Source: Thermoplasmata archaeon
Lineage (GTDB): Archaea; Thermoplasmatota; Thermoplasmata; Thermoplasmatales; Thermoplasmataceae
Direction of reading: 5' to 3'
Length of the DNA stretch: 53,201 nt
Assembly (NCBI GenBank): GCA_021817455.1
Contig: JAKAUW010000085.1
Span: 1 to 53,201 of the forward strand
Under the pieces are notes generated by a model. That model ran no database searches, was not told where the DNA came from, and was given only the letters and a program-made list of their open reading frames with translations. A program made the translations under genes and the position numbers. Position 1 is the first letter of the stretch. The number at the start of each line of letters is the position of its first letter. Shown piece by piece: positions 4,779 through 10,803 of the stretch.

Positions 4779-5939
4779 ATGGAGAAATTTCATAGGGACC
4801 CCCTGAACCCGTTCCCATGGTATGAAGTAATGAGGCAACACCAGCCCGTGTTTTATAGTGAAGGTAGCGGAATATGGCATGTGTTCAGGTATGCCGAGGT
4901 GAAAAAGGTACTTTCAGATCATTCTCATTTTTCCTCTTCTGAGGGGAGATATGAATCTGCAAGCAACCCAATAGGTGCAAGCATTATTTCCACAGATCCG
5001 CCAAGGCATACCCATCTCAGGGCGCTTGTGAACAAAGCGTTCACCCCGAAGCGGGTACAGGAAATGGCTCCGAGGATCAGGGCAATCGCTGAGGAACTGT
5101 TGGATAACATAATGGCAAAGGGCGAATGCGATCTTGTTGAGGATTATTCCGGCCCTCTTCCTGTAATAGTTATTGCAGAACTTCTGGGGATACCTCCTGA
5201 AGACCGGATGAAGTTCAAGAAGTGGTCTGATGCGCTCGTTTCAGGCACAAGTGAGGGCATGAATGAGACCAGCAACGAGTATTTTGACCCTCAGGTGGCA
5301 ATGGCAAAGTATTTCAGTGAAATAATCAGGATGAAGAGGGAAAAGCCGGGCGACGATTTAATAAGTTCACTGATGCGGGCCGAAGTTGATGGAGAGAAGC
5401 TGTCTGAAATAGACCTGTTGGGGTTCTGTGTTCTCCTCCTCGTGGCTGGAAACGAGACCACTACAAATCTCATAACTAATGCTGTGCTCACACTCTCAAA
5501 CAATGCTGACCAGTACAGGAGGGTAATCGCGGACAGAACACTGATCCCGGATATGCTAGAGGAAGTTCTGAGATACAGGTCCCCTGTGCAGTCCATGTTC
5601 AGAACCTGCAGGAAAGACATAGAGCTGGGCGGCAAACTCATTCAGAAAGGGCAGGTTGTTCTTGCGTGGATAGGTTCTGCCAACCATGATGCTGCAGAAT
5701 TCCAGAAGCCTGAAGAATTCCTTATGGATAGGAGACCAAACAGACACATTGCCTTTGGAGAAGGAGTGCATTTCTGCCTGGGAGCGCCGCTCGCAAGGCT
5801 GGAATCTAAGATTGCCATGGAAACTTTGCTTGAAAGGGCTGGAAAAGCAACTCTCAAAGAGGGGACACAGCTTGAACCCCTGAGTGGAATCATCGTCTTC
5901 GGCGTGAAGCATCTTCCTGTCTCTTTTTCCAGTGAATAG
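4779..5939 (+). CDS. Cytochrome P450
   Basis: Soluble 386-residue haem-thiolate monooxygenase, about the size of thermoacidophile P450s of the CYP119/CYP231 kind. Visible motifs are the oxygen-binding I-helix AGNETT (223-228), the ExxR pair E262/R265, and the haem loop FGEGVHFC with ligand Cys333. The start ATG 4779 gives the usual short N-terminus without a membrane anchor. No ferredoxin or reductase gene adjoins it, so the electron donor is elsewhere. It follows the ABC exporter on the same strand after 71 nt; a link in processing or exporting a small molecule is possible but unproven. Confidence 0.95.
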   Translation: MEKFHRDPLNPFPWYEVMRQHQPVFYSEGSGIWHVFRYAEVKKVLSDHSHFSSSEGRYESASNPIGASIISTDPPRHTHLRALVNKAFTPKRVQEMAPRIRAIAEELLDNIMAKGECDLVEDYSGPLPVIVIAELLGIPPEDRMKFKKWSDALVSGTSEGMNETSNEYFDPQVAMAKYFSEIIRMKREKPGDDLISSLMRAEVDGEKLSEIDLLGFCVLLLVAGNETTTNLITNAVLTLSNNADQYRRVIADRTLIPDMLEEVLRYRSPVQSMFRTCRKDIELGGKLIQKGQVVLAWIGSANHDAAEFQKPEEFLMDRRPNRHIAFGEGVHFCLGAPLARLESKIAMETLLERAGKATLKEGTQLEPLSGIIVFGVKHLPVSFSSE

Positions 5940-6030: not shown

Positions 6031-7659
6031 TTATTCCCCGAGTACCACAGACCTGTATAGTTTGAGGTTTGCCGCTGCAATGAGTATTACAATGCCCAGG
6101 CCAATGCCAAACAACGATTCCTGGAATGTTGAAGTTGCGCTGAATGGCTGAATCACTGTAATCAGTACAAATGCACCAAGTGTGAAAGCCCCGCCAAGCA
6201 TGTTCTTCATTCTTCTGGAAAGAGGCTTATAATGCTTCTTTTCCACTGAATGCCTTGAATCCCAGATGGTGTAGGCGACCATGGTAACAAGGAGGGCAAC
6301 AACCATGGCCATTAGAATGCTAGGCACATAATATACTGGATTCCTGTACCTTATGAGGGCATCTATGAGCATCCCCAGGCCAAATCCCGAAACACCAAGC
6401 AGGCTCATTGAAATGGCCAGCTGTGAAAAATGCCCTGCGTCCATGCCAGTCCTCTGGTAATTCTTAGAAAGATAATGTACCAGAGGTATAACAATCAGGA
6501 TGGGGAGCAGGAAGAATGCCAGCACTTGTGAAGTTGGTATGGAAACACCAGGTGTCAGGGCACCCCATGTGGAAAGCCCCACAAAGAATATGATGCCGAG
6601 AATTGCTAGGCCGAAGGTTATTGGCCTGTCTGTGAGCTTAAGGCTTGGTGACCTGTCTATGTATGGCAGCAGAAGAAGGTAGAAGACCGGGATGCCTGCA
6701 AATATGAGAGTCGCGTAGAATGGACCCGGGCCAGCCATAAAGCTAAAATCCACGGCTTTGTAGACGAAGAGCAGGAACCATGGTGGATATGCAGGCACAT
6801 TCTGGGCCAGAGGGCTATTGGGGGAAACCTGCGGGAATGGGGAAAACAATGCTGGGACGGTGGAACCCAGGGCTGCCACAACAGATGTAATGATCAGAAT
6901 GGCTGCTATTGTTATCATGCTTATCTGCAGCATATAGAACAGGTTGTTTGGATACCATGGCTTGTACTCAGGCTTTTCCTCATCTATGGCCGGCACCTTG
7001 TAGTTTGCATCCTTGTGCGAAGGCATAATTGAATTGTACTCAGCCAAAATGAAATGGCCCATGAAAAGAAGGCCTATTCCAGCAGCCAATACAATATGCC
7101 ATCCCAGCATCCTGTGGAAAAGGGAGACTGGTGTGCCATCACCAAAGAATATCAGTGAAAGATAATTCCCTATTATGGGTATCCCACGTGCAATGCCAGT
7201 TCCAACATCAGTTGCATCCGCAGAAAGCACATCCCCACTCATAGAATATCCAAAGAAACCGATGCCAACAGTAAGTGCAAGAAGAATTACTCCTGTGAGC
7301 CACTGCATCATCCTTGGCTTCTTGTAGGCAGCCACAAACAGATTCCTGAGAAGGTGAACATAAACGAGTACAATCATCATGTACGCACCATACAGATGAG
7401 TTGTCAGTATGATGGAACCAAATGGCACGCTGTTAACAAAGTTCTCAGTGCTGGTATAGGCCTGAGAAGGCTGGTAATACATTAAAATTATCAGGCCAGT
7501 TATGACCTCGTAAAGGAATGCCGTGGTTACCATGGCGCCTGTCCAGTACCATGCGCCACCTTTTTTCCTCATGTAATCTGGTACCTTTCTTGGAATGGGC
7601 CGGGGTTCATTGAGCATCTTGATCATTATGGGGGTTTCCTTAGGTTTTTCATTGTTCAT
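6031..7659 (-). CDS. Cytochrome b of a Rieske/cytochrome b complex
   Basis: Membrane quinol oxidase subunit that carries two b haems. The four haem ligands are plain: H88 and H102 in one helix, H188 and H202 in another, each pair 14 apart. The quinol-oxidation (Qo) motif, PEWY in most bc1 complexes, reads PPWF at residues 292-295, so the usual catalytic Glu is absent. At 542 residues it contains the b6-like N-terminal part plus a long C-terminal part with several extra helices. It starts 12 nt after the Rieske gene with a GAGGTG ribosome-binding site and is the last gene of the operon. Confidence 0.93.
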   Translation of the reverse strand: MNNEKPKETPIMIKMLNEPRPIPRKVPDYMRKKGGAWYWTGAMVTTAFLYEVITGLIILMYYQPSQAYTSTENFVNSVPFGSIILTTHLYGAYMMIVLVYVHLLRNLFVAAYKKPRMMQWLTGVILLALTVGIGFFGYSMSGDVLSADATDVGTGIARGIPIIGNYLSLIFFGDGTPVSLFHRMLGWHIVLAAGIGLLFMGHFILAEYNSIMPSHKDANYKVPAIDEEKPEYKPWYPNNLFYMLQISMITIAAILIITSVVAALGSTVPALFSPFPQVSPNSPLAQNVPAYPPWFLLFVYKAVDFSFMAGPGPFYATLIFAGIPVFYLLLLPYIDRSPSLKLTDRPITFGLAILGIIFFVGLSTWGALTPGVSIPTSQVLAFFLLPILIVIPLVHYLSKNYQRTGMDAGHFSQLAISMSLLGVSGFGLGMLIDALIRYRNPVYYVPSILMAMVVALLVTMVAYTIWDSRHSVEKKHYKPLSRRMKNMLGGAFTLGAFVLITVIQPFSATSTFQESLFGIGLGIVILIAAANLKLYRSVVLGE

Positions 7660-7671
7660 GTTTCATTCACC

Positions 7672-8418
7672 TCATGCTGACTGGGTAGACACCCCTGTCT
7701 GGGAGCTTGAAGGTAGAGGGTTGCCTCCTGACAGATCACTGCTGTGGCCGTATACTGTGGGCCCGACCATTGAAACTGCATAGTACTGGTCGCTGGTTTT
7801 ATCATATTTGAGGGAAACATTGGGCAATGGGTTCTGAGTTGGGCCAGTAACGATGCCAAATCCTTTCCCCGGATCATAGGTGCTTCCGTGGCAGTTGCAG
7901 TGAATAAGCCCTGTGTTTTGTGAGCCTGAAGGGCCATTTGGTATGCTAGTGCCCGGTTTGTAGAACTTTATAATGGGCGGGACGCAGCCCAGATGTTCGC
8001 AAATGGCACTTGAAGCAACCACTGAACCATAAGGGCCGACACCGGCCGGAGATTGGAAAGTGCCTCCAGAAGCTGGTATGCTTACCTTAACTGATTTCAC
8101 ATTTACATCGTTTCCGCTGGCATCTCCAAGCCTCAAAAGAAAATTTGGCTCGCCTTGAAGCGGATAATCGAATGTAACCACAGCACTGCTGTTAACCGTT
8201 AGGTCAGTAGTGTTTATGGGTTTCCCAGAAGCTGAATCAACCAGCAGCAGTTGCGGGAACCCTGTTATTCCAGCACTCTTCGGTATGATATTCTGCAGGG
8301 CAACCCTGAGTGCGCCAGCAGATGCAGCTGCAAAGGCAGCCACGGTCATGTATTTCAGGAAGCTTCTCCTGGACGGGTCTTCCACTCCTTCCATTTCAAT
8401 ACTTGTCTCTTCAGTCAT
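7672..8418 (-). CDS. Rieske iron-sulfur protein, Tat-exported
   Basis: Carries the [2Fe-2S] cluster that takes electrons from quinol at cytochrome b. With ATG 8418 as start it has 248 residues. A Tat signal SRRSFLKYM lies at 16-24, followed by a hydrophobic anchor, placing the domain outside the membrane. The cluster boxes are CEHLGC (140-145) and CNCHGS (174-179); C140, H142, C174 and H177 would be ligands and C145-C176 the disulfide. ATG 8418 is preferred over TTG 8424 because GAGG sits 7 nt upstream. The Ser/Gly/Pro-rich C-terminal tail is typical of acid-exposed proteins. Confidence 0.95.
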   Translation of the reverse strand: MTEETSIEMEGVEDPSRRSFLKYMTVAAFAAASAGALRVALQNIIPKSAGITGFPQLLLVDSASGKPINTTDLTVNSSAVVTFDYPLQGEPNFLLRLGDASGNDVNVKSVKVSIPASGGTFQSPAGVGPYGSVVASSAICEHLGCVPPIIKFYKPGTSIPNGPSGSQNTGLIHCNCHGSTYDPGKGFGIVTGPTQNPLPNVSLKYDKTSDQYYAVSMVGPTVYGHSSDLSGGNPLPSSSQTGVSTQSA

Positions 8419-8441
8419 TTTCAAACCTCAATGAATGGGGC

Positions 8442-8460
8442 TACTGATCAGTGATCAGTA
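8442..8460. promoter_or_regulatory. 19-bp perfect inverted repeat between cupredoxin and Rieske genes
   Basis: TACTGATCA (8442-8450), one central base, then TGATCAGTA (8452-8460). It overlaps the stop codon of the cupredoxin gene (8455-8457) and sits 24 nt before the Rieske start. It could be an operator, an intercistronic RNA hairpin that sets the ratio of the two proteins, or a processing site. The arms are seen directly; the role is inference. Confidence 0.45.
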
Positions 8461-9720
8461 GACGTAAACAGAGCCCATCATCCATCCGGGAGTCATCATG
8501 GCTCCTTCCATTCCATTGGCACCAAATCCACAGGCGTCCCAGCATGCCCAGCTGTAGGTGCCCGTCTGGTTGATGTAGAATGATGCTGAAACTGTTGCGC
8601 TATCGGCCACGGGTATGTTGATGGTCGAGCCTGCTCCAAGTGAAATTGTGAAAGTGTGCGAGGCCTCCGATGCTGATATGTTGGATGCCCATGAGCCACC
8701 ACTTACTGAAATTCCGGTGGGGCTTCCAGGACTTCCTGTGATTGTTGAGTTGACTGTGCTGTCATTGAGATAGAAGATCTTCCCCCCAACCGTTCCAGTT
8801 ACATTTGCGTAAGAATCCTGGTATAGAGGACCTGCTGTGTCAAAGTTAAAGATGTTCACGTTGATCCTGGTGTCTGCCGGTATTGAGATATTGGAGCTTG
8901 AATACAGGGCTCCATTTGAGAGGACGATGAATGCAGGCTGGTGTGCTGTGGAGTTCCAGGGCTGGTGGGGCACCGCGAGAAGGTTGAGGCCGTATGGCTG
9001 GTTTGCAACACTCATGTTTGCTACGGTGACATAGCCCGTCATCCATCCTGGTGTTGACATTGCACCAGTGAATTCTGATGGGGCGCCGCAGCCGGCTTCA
9101 CATTGCCAGTAGTATCCACCAGGCTGGCTTAGCATGAATGTGGTTTGTTCTACCGTTGAGGGCAGAATTGGGATATTGACTGCTACCTTGTGGGTTGCGT
9201 TGCTGAAAATTGTAAAGGTGTGAGATATGGAGTTGTTGTCTACGTAGGTTGTTACAATGCCGCCGGTTATTGCTATCCCGGATGCCGCAGTTGATGTTGG
9301 GTCTATTGCGTAGGACTGGATCAGGGTCTCATTGTAAACAGAAACCTGGTCATTGTATGTTCCAACTACTGCGCTGTAATTGCTGTCCGTGCTCGCGGCA
9401 CCGCCATCATAATTCCTGATCGTAAGCTGGATTGGCACACTTGCAGGCAGCTTGATATTTTCCGAAGACTGGAGGGTATTGTTCTGCAGCACGAAAAAAG
9501 CAGGCTGCTGTCCGGCTGTTGCGTTGAAGTAATTCTGTGTGGTCACAACCAGTGTAAGCTGGTATGGCTGCACAGCAGTTGCCTGGGCATTAATTGCCCC
9601 TGGCCCCGTGGTACTCTCCGGAGATGCACCTAGTGATGCGTGATAGGCAACCCCGATTCCTATCCCTCCCAATACAATAATTGCAGTAACAACTGAATAG
9701 AAAATTCTCTCGCTCACCAT
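8455..9720 (-). CDS. Tandem CuA-like cupredoxin protein, membrane-anchored
   Basis: A 421-residue protein with an N-terminal membrane anchor (about 7-26) and two homologous extracytoplasmic beta-rich domains. Each domain has SHTFTI (H167, H355), a W-x-C-x3-C-G loop (C207/C211 and C393/C397) and an ending PGWM-x-G-x-V-x-V. This matches the CuA loop of cytochrome oxidase subunit II (C-x3-C-x3-H-x2-M-x-G), except that the second His is Pro (P224, P411) and about nine residues are inserted. ATG 9720 is chosen because GGGAGG lies 6 nt upstream; an upstream in-frame start at 9816 would put residues before the anchor. First gene of the operon with Rieske and cytochrome b; probably an electron carrier or copper site. 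Confidence 0.75.
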   Translation of the reverse strand: MVSERIFYSVVTAIIVLGGIGIGVAYHASLGASPESTTGPGAINAQATAVQPYQLTLVVTTQNYFNATAGQQPAFFVLQNNTLQSSENIKLPASVPIQLTIRNYDGGAASTDSNYSAVVGTYNDQVSVYNETLIQSYAIDPTSTAASGIAITGGIVTTYVDNNSISHTFTIFSNATHKVAVNIPILPSTVEQTTFMLSQPGGYYWQCEAGCGAPSEFTGAMSTPGWMTGYVTVANMSVANQPYGLNLLAVPHQPWNSTAHQPAFIVLSNGALYSSSNISIPADTRINVNIFNFDTAGPLYQDSYANVTGTVGGKIFYLNDSTVNSTITGSPGSPTGISVSGGSWASNISASEASHTFTISLGAGSTINIPVADSATVSASFYINQTGTYSWACWDACGFGANGMEGAMMTPGWMMGSVYVY

Positions 9721-10147
9721 AACTGTCCTCCCAGATATAGGTCGTTCATTTGTAAGGTAAAAAATGTGGTTTAACAAATAGGACATACCTAAAATATTAA
9801 GGTAGAAATCCGGCAATCGGATGGCAGGACATAATTTTCATCTTGATATGGACCTGCTGGAGCAGTTTGAATATATTAGAGAATTTTTGATATAAAAATT
9901 AGTTCATATATCTACGAAGCACCTAACATAATATGGAAAAAATATAAATTGAACCGGGAGGGCGCACCAGGTCAAACAATTCTGTGTGAATCAAATAAAC
10001 ATATGGCATGTATTACTGCTTAATGCGTGCATCAAGAAAACTCATATACAGTACCATTTTACTAAATTATACAGGTAAAACCAGTGGGACAGTGTACCTT
10101 GAGATGCACTATAAAGAGTTCCCATTGGTGCTGTTATTTTTCTTGTA
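9721..10147. promoter_or_regulatory. Intergenic region with promoter of the respiratory operon
   Basis: About 430 nt with no convincing gene. On the minus strand a TATA-like CCTTAATATTTT near 9795-9806 could drive the cupredoxin-Rieske-cytochrome b operon, giving a leader of some 50 nt that carries a Shine-Dalgarno site. An A/T-rich inverted repeat AATTTTT (9882-9888) and AAAAATT (9894-9900) lies further upstream. A 77-codon frame at 10042-10275 overlaps the DUF3800 remnant in another frame and is not credited. Confidence 0.5.
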
Positions 10148-10803
10148 CTATTTGAAAAATCTTTCATATCTAATACGGAAATCGTAGAACTTGCTTTCAA
10201 ACCCAAAGAGATATACAAATTCTGAATCATATCTTTCTTCTTTTTGGAAAAGGCTCCAGGATAAGAGATCTGCAAATTGTAAACCAGAGAGGGAAGGAGA
10301 ATAGCTATGGTGGATATTCAATTTACCTGTCTTTGAATCCATTCTTAGCAATTATCCAAAAATACTGATTGAAGTCATCTCTCAGAAGCTGTTTTCCCTT
10401 TGATTTATCTATCCTCTTCTCTAAATCACAGTCCTATAGGCTTACGTTTACTGCAAGTTTCACGGCAACAAAGTTGTAAAGTTTATCTTTGTGATTTAGA
10501 AGGTATTCGCTCGTAAGACGTTTTTTATAAGAGTTACATAAAATTGGTGGCCCCTGGTGAACTGTTTATTTTGTAGATCATATGCTTTCGAAGATCTGGA
10601 CACGAATTATTAGCCTTAATTTCTGCAGTGGTTTGCAGTTCCCTTTTGAATTTGCTTCTCCTCATGTTCCTGGTAATTCTGTCCAGGTCCTTTGAATCTT
10701 CTAAGAGTTGCGCTGAGATGACAGGTACCTTTGAACTTCCTTTGGAGAAAACTAAATCTCCACTTTCGTCAATGTGAACATATATTTCAGCACCACCCAA
10801 CAC
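10148..10803 (-). pseudogene. DUF3800-family protein, broken
   Basis: Reading down the minus strand, the N-terminal part (10803 to 10534) carries the family hallmark YVHIDESGD at its start. It stops at a TAA near 10534. A second frame continues with KLYNFVAVKLAV, a TAG stop, then DKSKGKQLLRDDF and another stop. A third frame (10351 to 10148) supplies the C-terminal part with LQFADLLSWSLFQKEER. Together they cover a normal length of about 220 residues but need two frameshifts and one stop readthrough, so the gene is dead. DUF3800 proteins often sit in mobile or defence-linked DNA; this copy lies just downstream of tRNA-Ser(GGA). Confidence 0.8.

Follow-up and report, generated by a model that had tools for sequence, protein, structure and literature searches.

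A CuA-related tandem cupredoxin with a putative one-His, two-Cys, two-Met site, encoded with Rieske and cytochrome b proteins in Thermoplasmata

The window (the whole stretch of 53,201 nt that was analysed, from a Thermoplasmata archaeon) carries on its minus strand a cupredoxin-Rieske-cytochrome b operon, of which the cupredoxin is the first gene:

8455..9720, minus strand: tandem CuA-like cupredoxin, 421 aa (open reading frame, Pfam COX2 and same-genus homologues)
7672..8424, minus strand: Rieske [2Fe-2S] protein with a Tat signal and the motifs CEHLGC and CNCHG (Pfam Rieske)
6031..7659, minus strand: cytochrome b, 542 aa, with two H-x13-H pairs read from the translation (Pfam Cytochrom_B_N_2, E = 1.4e-43)

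The gap between the cupredoxin and Rieske genes is about 30 nt, and that between the Rieske and cytochrome b genes 12 nt. The cupredoxin reading frame starts at an ATG at 9720, with a GGAGG-like stretch just upstream, and stops at a TGA (8455-8457); full-length homologues in the same genus are 77-80% identical. The Rieske protein scores 211 bits against the NCBIfam SoxL2-like model, which is below that model's cut-off. Around the operon, a cytochrome P450 gene at 4779-5939 on the plus strand is convergent with it, a neighbour kept in the two closest relatives (L033 and L034), and several short open reading frames in differing frames at 10042-10803 on the minus strand (e.g., MLGGAEIYVHIDESGDLVFSKGSS) look like one gene broken by frameshifts.

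The cupredoxin consists of a membrane anchor and two domains, in which we recognize the following elements (the codon of residue n ends at position 9720 - 3(n - 1)):

9640..9705, minus strand: single N-terminal transmembrane anchor, approximately residues 6-27 (read from the sequence)
9013..9570, minus strand: cupredoxin domain 1, 186 aa (alignment A1, AlphaFold2, and Foldseek), with putative ligands H167, C207, C211, M221, and M227
9220..9222, minus strand: codon of His167 in SHTFT, domain 1, invariant across the family
9088..9102, minus strand: C207-x3-C211, domain 1, invariant and aligned with the two CuA Cys of Thermus thermophilus
9058..9060, minus strand: Met221 in GAM, domain 1, proposed stand-in for the second CuA His (from Met-x(4-6)-Met conservation)
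9040..9042, minus strand: Met227 in PGWM, domain 1, invariant, counterpart of the axial CuA Met
8458..8994, minus strand: cupredoxin domain 2, 179 aa (alignments A1 and A4), with putative ligands H355, C393, C397, M408, and M414

Both domains (∼180 aa each) end in the pattern SHTFT ... C-x3-C ... GAM-x-TPGWM-x-G-x-V (domain 1, SHTFT...WQCEAGCGAPSEFTGAMSTPGWMTGYVTV; domain 2, SHTFT...WACWDACGFGANGMEGAMMTPGWMMGSVYVY). The translation thus bears out what a sequence-only reading of this DNA had claimed for each domain: a His in SHTFT, a Cys-x3-Cys pair, and a terminal Met in PGWM. Its estimate of about nine inserted residues also holds, since the distance from the second Cys to the Met is 16-17 residues compared with seven in CuA, i.e., 9-10 extra; the spacing from H167 to C207 is x39, compared with approximately x34 between the His and the C-x3-C pair of Cox2-type CuA. 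That reading overlooked a second Met, located in GAM six residues ahead of the PGWM Met in both domains. A hydrophobic N-terminus similar to that of the window protein is found in nearly all homologues listed. As for the origin of the tandem, a quick tree hints at fusion of two different paralogues; a single clade for both tandem domains is not rejected (AU P = 0.28), and we therefore do not claim such a fusion.

Several comparisons place these domains near CuA. Domain 1 matches Pfam COX2 with 25.3 bits (cut-off 22), and among solved structures the family profile fits best to the ba3 oxidase CuA domain from T. thermophilus (2cua, E = 9.4e-8), with which the His and both Cys align; N2O reductase stands lower in the match list, and the profile favors CuA over blue copper proteins. 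Given the COX2 score and the 2cua match, the resemblance to CuA noticed earlier is not due to chance. The profile comparison with Cox2 that had been proposed as a check gives the same picture: against Thermoplasmatota Cox2, hhalign returns a probability of 95.8% for the long-loop and 93.6% for the short-loop domains, the final Met of the latter aligning with the axial CuA Met. For domain 1, AlphaFold2 (53 sequences) predicts a cupredoxin fold with pLDDT 90.1 and pTM 0.86; a model of the full tandem built from seven sequences reached pLDDT 45 and was left out of the fold reading. Foldseek matches the domain 1 model to rusticyanin and to laccase and nitrite reductase domains, and also to the CuA domains of ba3 and caa3 oxidases and of N2O reductase, with rusticyanin and other blue copper folds ranked above the CuA domains. 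On these profiles and the predicted structure, both domains are CuA-related cupredoxins.

To assemble homologues, we drew on 61 related genomes, GTDB contigs, and 390 genomes of the phylum. In alignment A1 (53 rows), the invariant residues are P42, D55, G70, H117, T118, C157, C161, G162, M171, G175, M177, and G179. The axial Met that precedes the last strand (M227 and M414 in the window protein) is present in 53 of 53 rows; a Pro at the CuA His position is absent from the invariant set. We scored motifs in 112 unique domains found by the family profile with no motif requirement. The six Cox2-type matches all carry the canonical Cys-x3-Cys-x3-His-x2-Met, and one further match is a multicopper-oxidase-like domain without the Cys pair. 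Among the 105 non-Cox2 family domains, 104 combine the His with Cys-x3-Cys and Met-x(4-6)-Met, with an inter-Met gap of exactly five residues in at least 101 of the 104; the sole exception (L130) has lost the first Met. The Cys pair, whose loss in relatives had been named as a possible refutation, is retained in 105 of 105, and a second His at C-x3-H-x2-M occurs in none of them. An earlier set of 58 domains was assembled in which His and Cys were required by construction and the Mets were not.

The suggestion that Pro in place of the second CuA His marks this protein stands only in part. Both window copies do have Pro at that position, three residues before the PGWM Met (P224 and P411), but among 104 family domains the position holds P in 66, A in 15 (as in domain 2 of a congener, L005), S in seven, V in five (as in Thermoplasma acidophilum), D in four, Q and L in two each, and N, T, and M in one each; with the position this variable, Pro is rejected as a hallmark. 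On the alignments, the fixed feature of the family is the second Met, not Pro. Between 2 and 12 residues separate the second Cys from the first Met, with four in 22 domains and 9-12 in 78; a four-residue loop puts the first Met one residue past the canonical His position in the short-loop relatives. The simplest reading of these patterns would be replacement of a His ligand by Met together with growth of the loop. Nor is the missing His supplied elsewhere: A compensating residue that could complete a normal CuA or blue copper site was looked for among the homologues, none is conserved, and the other His of the window protein (e.g., in VPHQPWNSTAHQPAF) vary. Strong conservation across many genera upholds the view that this is a fixed variant rather than decay. 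The domains therefore belong to an archaeal family of CuA relatives that is widespread, occurring also in Thermoplasma, and whose probable site consists of one His, two Cys, and two Met. Six A1 residues in the N-terminal half (N16, Q22, P23, P42, D55, and G70) are also strongly conserved at a distance in sequence from the proposed ligands, and could be a docking surface.

The family has further branches. A group of more distant relatives (family f7, L102-L134) has the loop form C-x3-C-x4-M-x5-M and up to five short-loop or mixed paralogues per genome; a Rieske gene adjoins some of its members (L108 and L134), and some (L119 and L125) have long additional N-terminal membrane segments. One bacterial member with a GAMSTPGWM loop (L062, Bacillota MAG JA4.bin15) is probably the result of horizontal transfer or a binning error. 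A paralogue subfamily has Cys-x-Cys-x-Cys instead of C-x3-C (e.g., WGCMCDCGAPSM, on G000 contig C16, L066:5771-6376:-; further members in L026, L032, L133, L142, and L145). In the window genome this paralogue adjoins NnrS (Pfam E = 3e-9), and its other neighbors are a DUF2249/cupin protein, hemerythrin-like proteins, and an NDH-2-like protein, which suggests a role in nitric oxide or nitrosative stress.

The clustering of cupredoxin, Rieske, and cytochrome b genes is a pointer to function. This order recurs in many genomes, both in Thermoplasmatota and in Nitrososphaerota (L045 and L050, labelled Thaumarchaeota). Of the 67 unique homologues with enough flanking sequence, 19 have a Rieske gene directly next to them, among them all seven tandem proteins; in L024 and L089 the Rieske gene is divergent relative to the cupredoxin. 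In L143 and L144, which we take to be Thermoplasma volcanium and T. acidophilum, the members have a single domain and share their strand with a Rieske gene at a distance of a few kb. The other 48 of the 67 have no adjoining Rieske gene and many genomes hold several cupredoxin paralogues, so other roles must exist. In a set of 35 relatives with a completeness of 90% or more, the cupredoxin is accompanied by a strong cytochrome b match (E < 1e-100) in 20, and both are absent in 15, with no discordant genome, a co-occurrence that is phylogenetically clustered; five of the 15 have a distant cytochrome b only. A second Rieske-cytochrome b pair in the window genome (G000:C7:46726-49162; L148:4727-7163) is without an adjoining cupredoxin and is followed by an enoyl-CoA hydratase-like gene, a similar gene being present in Thermoplasma between the cupredoxin and the Rieske-cytochrome b pair.

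The rest of the respiratory chain defines the place such a protein might occupy. Searches of the genome for cytochrome c (PF00034) and c1 (PF02167) gave no match, while control genomes did; cytochrome c is missing from all Thermoplasmatota genomes surveyed (PMC9287336). A separate contig encodes a canonical CuA Cox2 (CVEYCGQDHYLM) beside Cox1, together with a cupredoxin that reads as type 1 (sulfocyanin-like). With a canonical Cox2 adjoining Cox1 on that contig, the window protein is ruled out as the oxidase's own subunit II.

Four features taken together suggest that the window protein is an electron acceptor for the Rieske head: where its gene lies, the lack of a cytochrome c1, its membrane anchor, and its relationship to CuA. 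We put at slightly better than even (a probability of roughly 0.55) the reading that it is a copper subunit of the archaeal Rieske/cytochrome b complex, in the role of cytochrome c1 or f, with a CuA-like site of one His, two Cys, and two Met. Each domain would form such a site, in which a Met carried on a longer loop takes the place of the C-terminal CuA His. Quinol oxidized at cytochrome b would pass one electron to the Rieske [2Fe-2S] cluster, and the Rieske head would hand it to the nearer copper domain; in the tandem forms it would hop on through the second domain, the two in series making a longer wire. From there it would pass to a soluble blue-copper protein or to the terminal oxidase, at its CuA. 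We infer here the binding of copper, a binuclear, Cys-bridged CuA-like site rather than a mononuclear one, direct contact with the Rieske protein, and the order of electron transfer. In its fuller form, the proposal is of a natural binuclear CuA whose C-terminal His has become Met and which substitutes for cytochrome c1 in archaeal complex III, a change that may have been favored because acid cannot protonate a Met off the copper; this we hold tentatively, at somewhat under even odds. The acid-stability reason is itself speculation, since a normal CuA with both His is retained in this genome and presumably faces that side of the membrane too; the pH argument for losing the His reportedly goes back to engineered CuA azurin.

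With Met in place of His, a mononuclear or Cu(I)-only site would be an equally possible outcome. A mononuclear centre, in which the His, the Met, and either one Cys or both bind a single copper, would be a new type-1 or thiolate centre and still an electron carrier for Rieske and cytochrome b. Each domain has a single conserved His, the loop ahead of the first Met varies in length in a way that a tight binuclear core might not tolerate, and the Foldseek ranking leans the same way. Type-1 sites, however, take two His and a single Cys as ligands; Cys-x3-Cys, invariant here, is the bridging motif of CuA, and by sequence profile the family is closer to CuA than to blue copper proteins. We consider this reading unlikely, if worth keeping in view. 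A more doubtful proposal is that the protein delivers Cu(I), loading it into an oxidase or another cuproprotein. Sco delivers copper with Cys-x3-Cys and a His, and Cys-x3-Cys, His, and two Met make a soft, sulfur-rich set for Cu(I); the number of paralogues per genome and the many members outside the Rieske operon would also fit. Yet the operon partner, the Rieske/cytochrome b complex, contains no copper, the Cox1 and Cox2 genes are located elsewhere, and the presence of the cupredoxin tracks that of cytochrome b.

Least credible is the copper-free redox disulfide on a cupredoxin fold that the sequence-only reading had offered as one possibility. It would account for a Cys pair accompanied by only one clear His, but a disulfide needs neither an invariant His nor two invariant Met, and more than 100 domains from several phyla preserve the His and both Met along with the CuA-like arrangement. 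We regard it as very improbable.

Comparison with known systems shows both likeness and departure. CuA of cytochrome oxidase subunit II and N2O reductase shares with the window domains the cupredoxin fold, the N-terminal His, Cys-x3-Cys, detectable homology, and the terminal Met followed by x-G-x-hydrophobic; the window domains differ in lacking a His four residues after the second Cys and in having a conserved Met on a longer loop. Unlike CuA of the oxidase, the gene adjoins no oxidase subunit I and is paired with Rieske and cytochrome b. Sulfocyanin and rusticyanin resemble the window protein in fold and as membrane-associated or periplasmic copper electron carriers of acidophiles (copper being putative here), but they use one Cys, two His, and one Met; the A1 domains have one conserved His, two Cys, and two Met in place of this type-1 blue copper set, and the NCBIfam sulfocyanin model gives no significant match to the window protein. 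PmoD forms a CuA-type centre from noncanonical ligands including Met (PMC6189053), and PmoD/AmoD is likewise a cupredoxin with a noncanonical CuA-type set (putative in the window protein). In PmoD, however, the motif Cx7MxH belongs to a different region of the fold and sits where the two chains of a homodimer meet, whereas the window domains use the canonical CuA loops; the PmoD/AmoD motif Cx7MxHxnC near the N-terminus is absent from them, their only conserved Cys being C-x3-C near the C-terminal end of the domain.

A further parallel concerns the cytochrome c1 slot. Of 30 complex III loci in Angelarchaeales, 23 have a plastocyanin-like gene upstream of the Rieske gene (PMC9038741), so this slot is already known to take copper proteins. 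As in the window, a copper-type protein there occupies the position of cytochrome c1 in Thermoplasmatota lacking cytochrome c; the Angelarchaeales protein is described as plastocyanin-like (type 1), whereas the window domain is related to CuA, with two Cys and one His. A CuA-derived protein in the cytochrome c1 slot is not described in the complex III papers cited here, and searches of the open literature, which took in a minority of subscription journals, turned up no report of a Cox2-type CuA loop in which Met stands for His.

Cox2-type CuA centres have been described with two His ligands. More than 100 domains that keep all CuA ligands but one His, with a Met fixed instead, are a natural experiment on what CuA requires. 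How electrons leave complex III in Thermoplasmata without cytochrome c is an open question (PMC5155288), on which this family of CuA-like cupredoxins bears. Members in the cultured T. acidophilum and T. volcanium make the family open to experiment.
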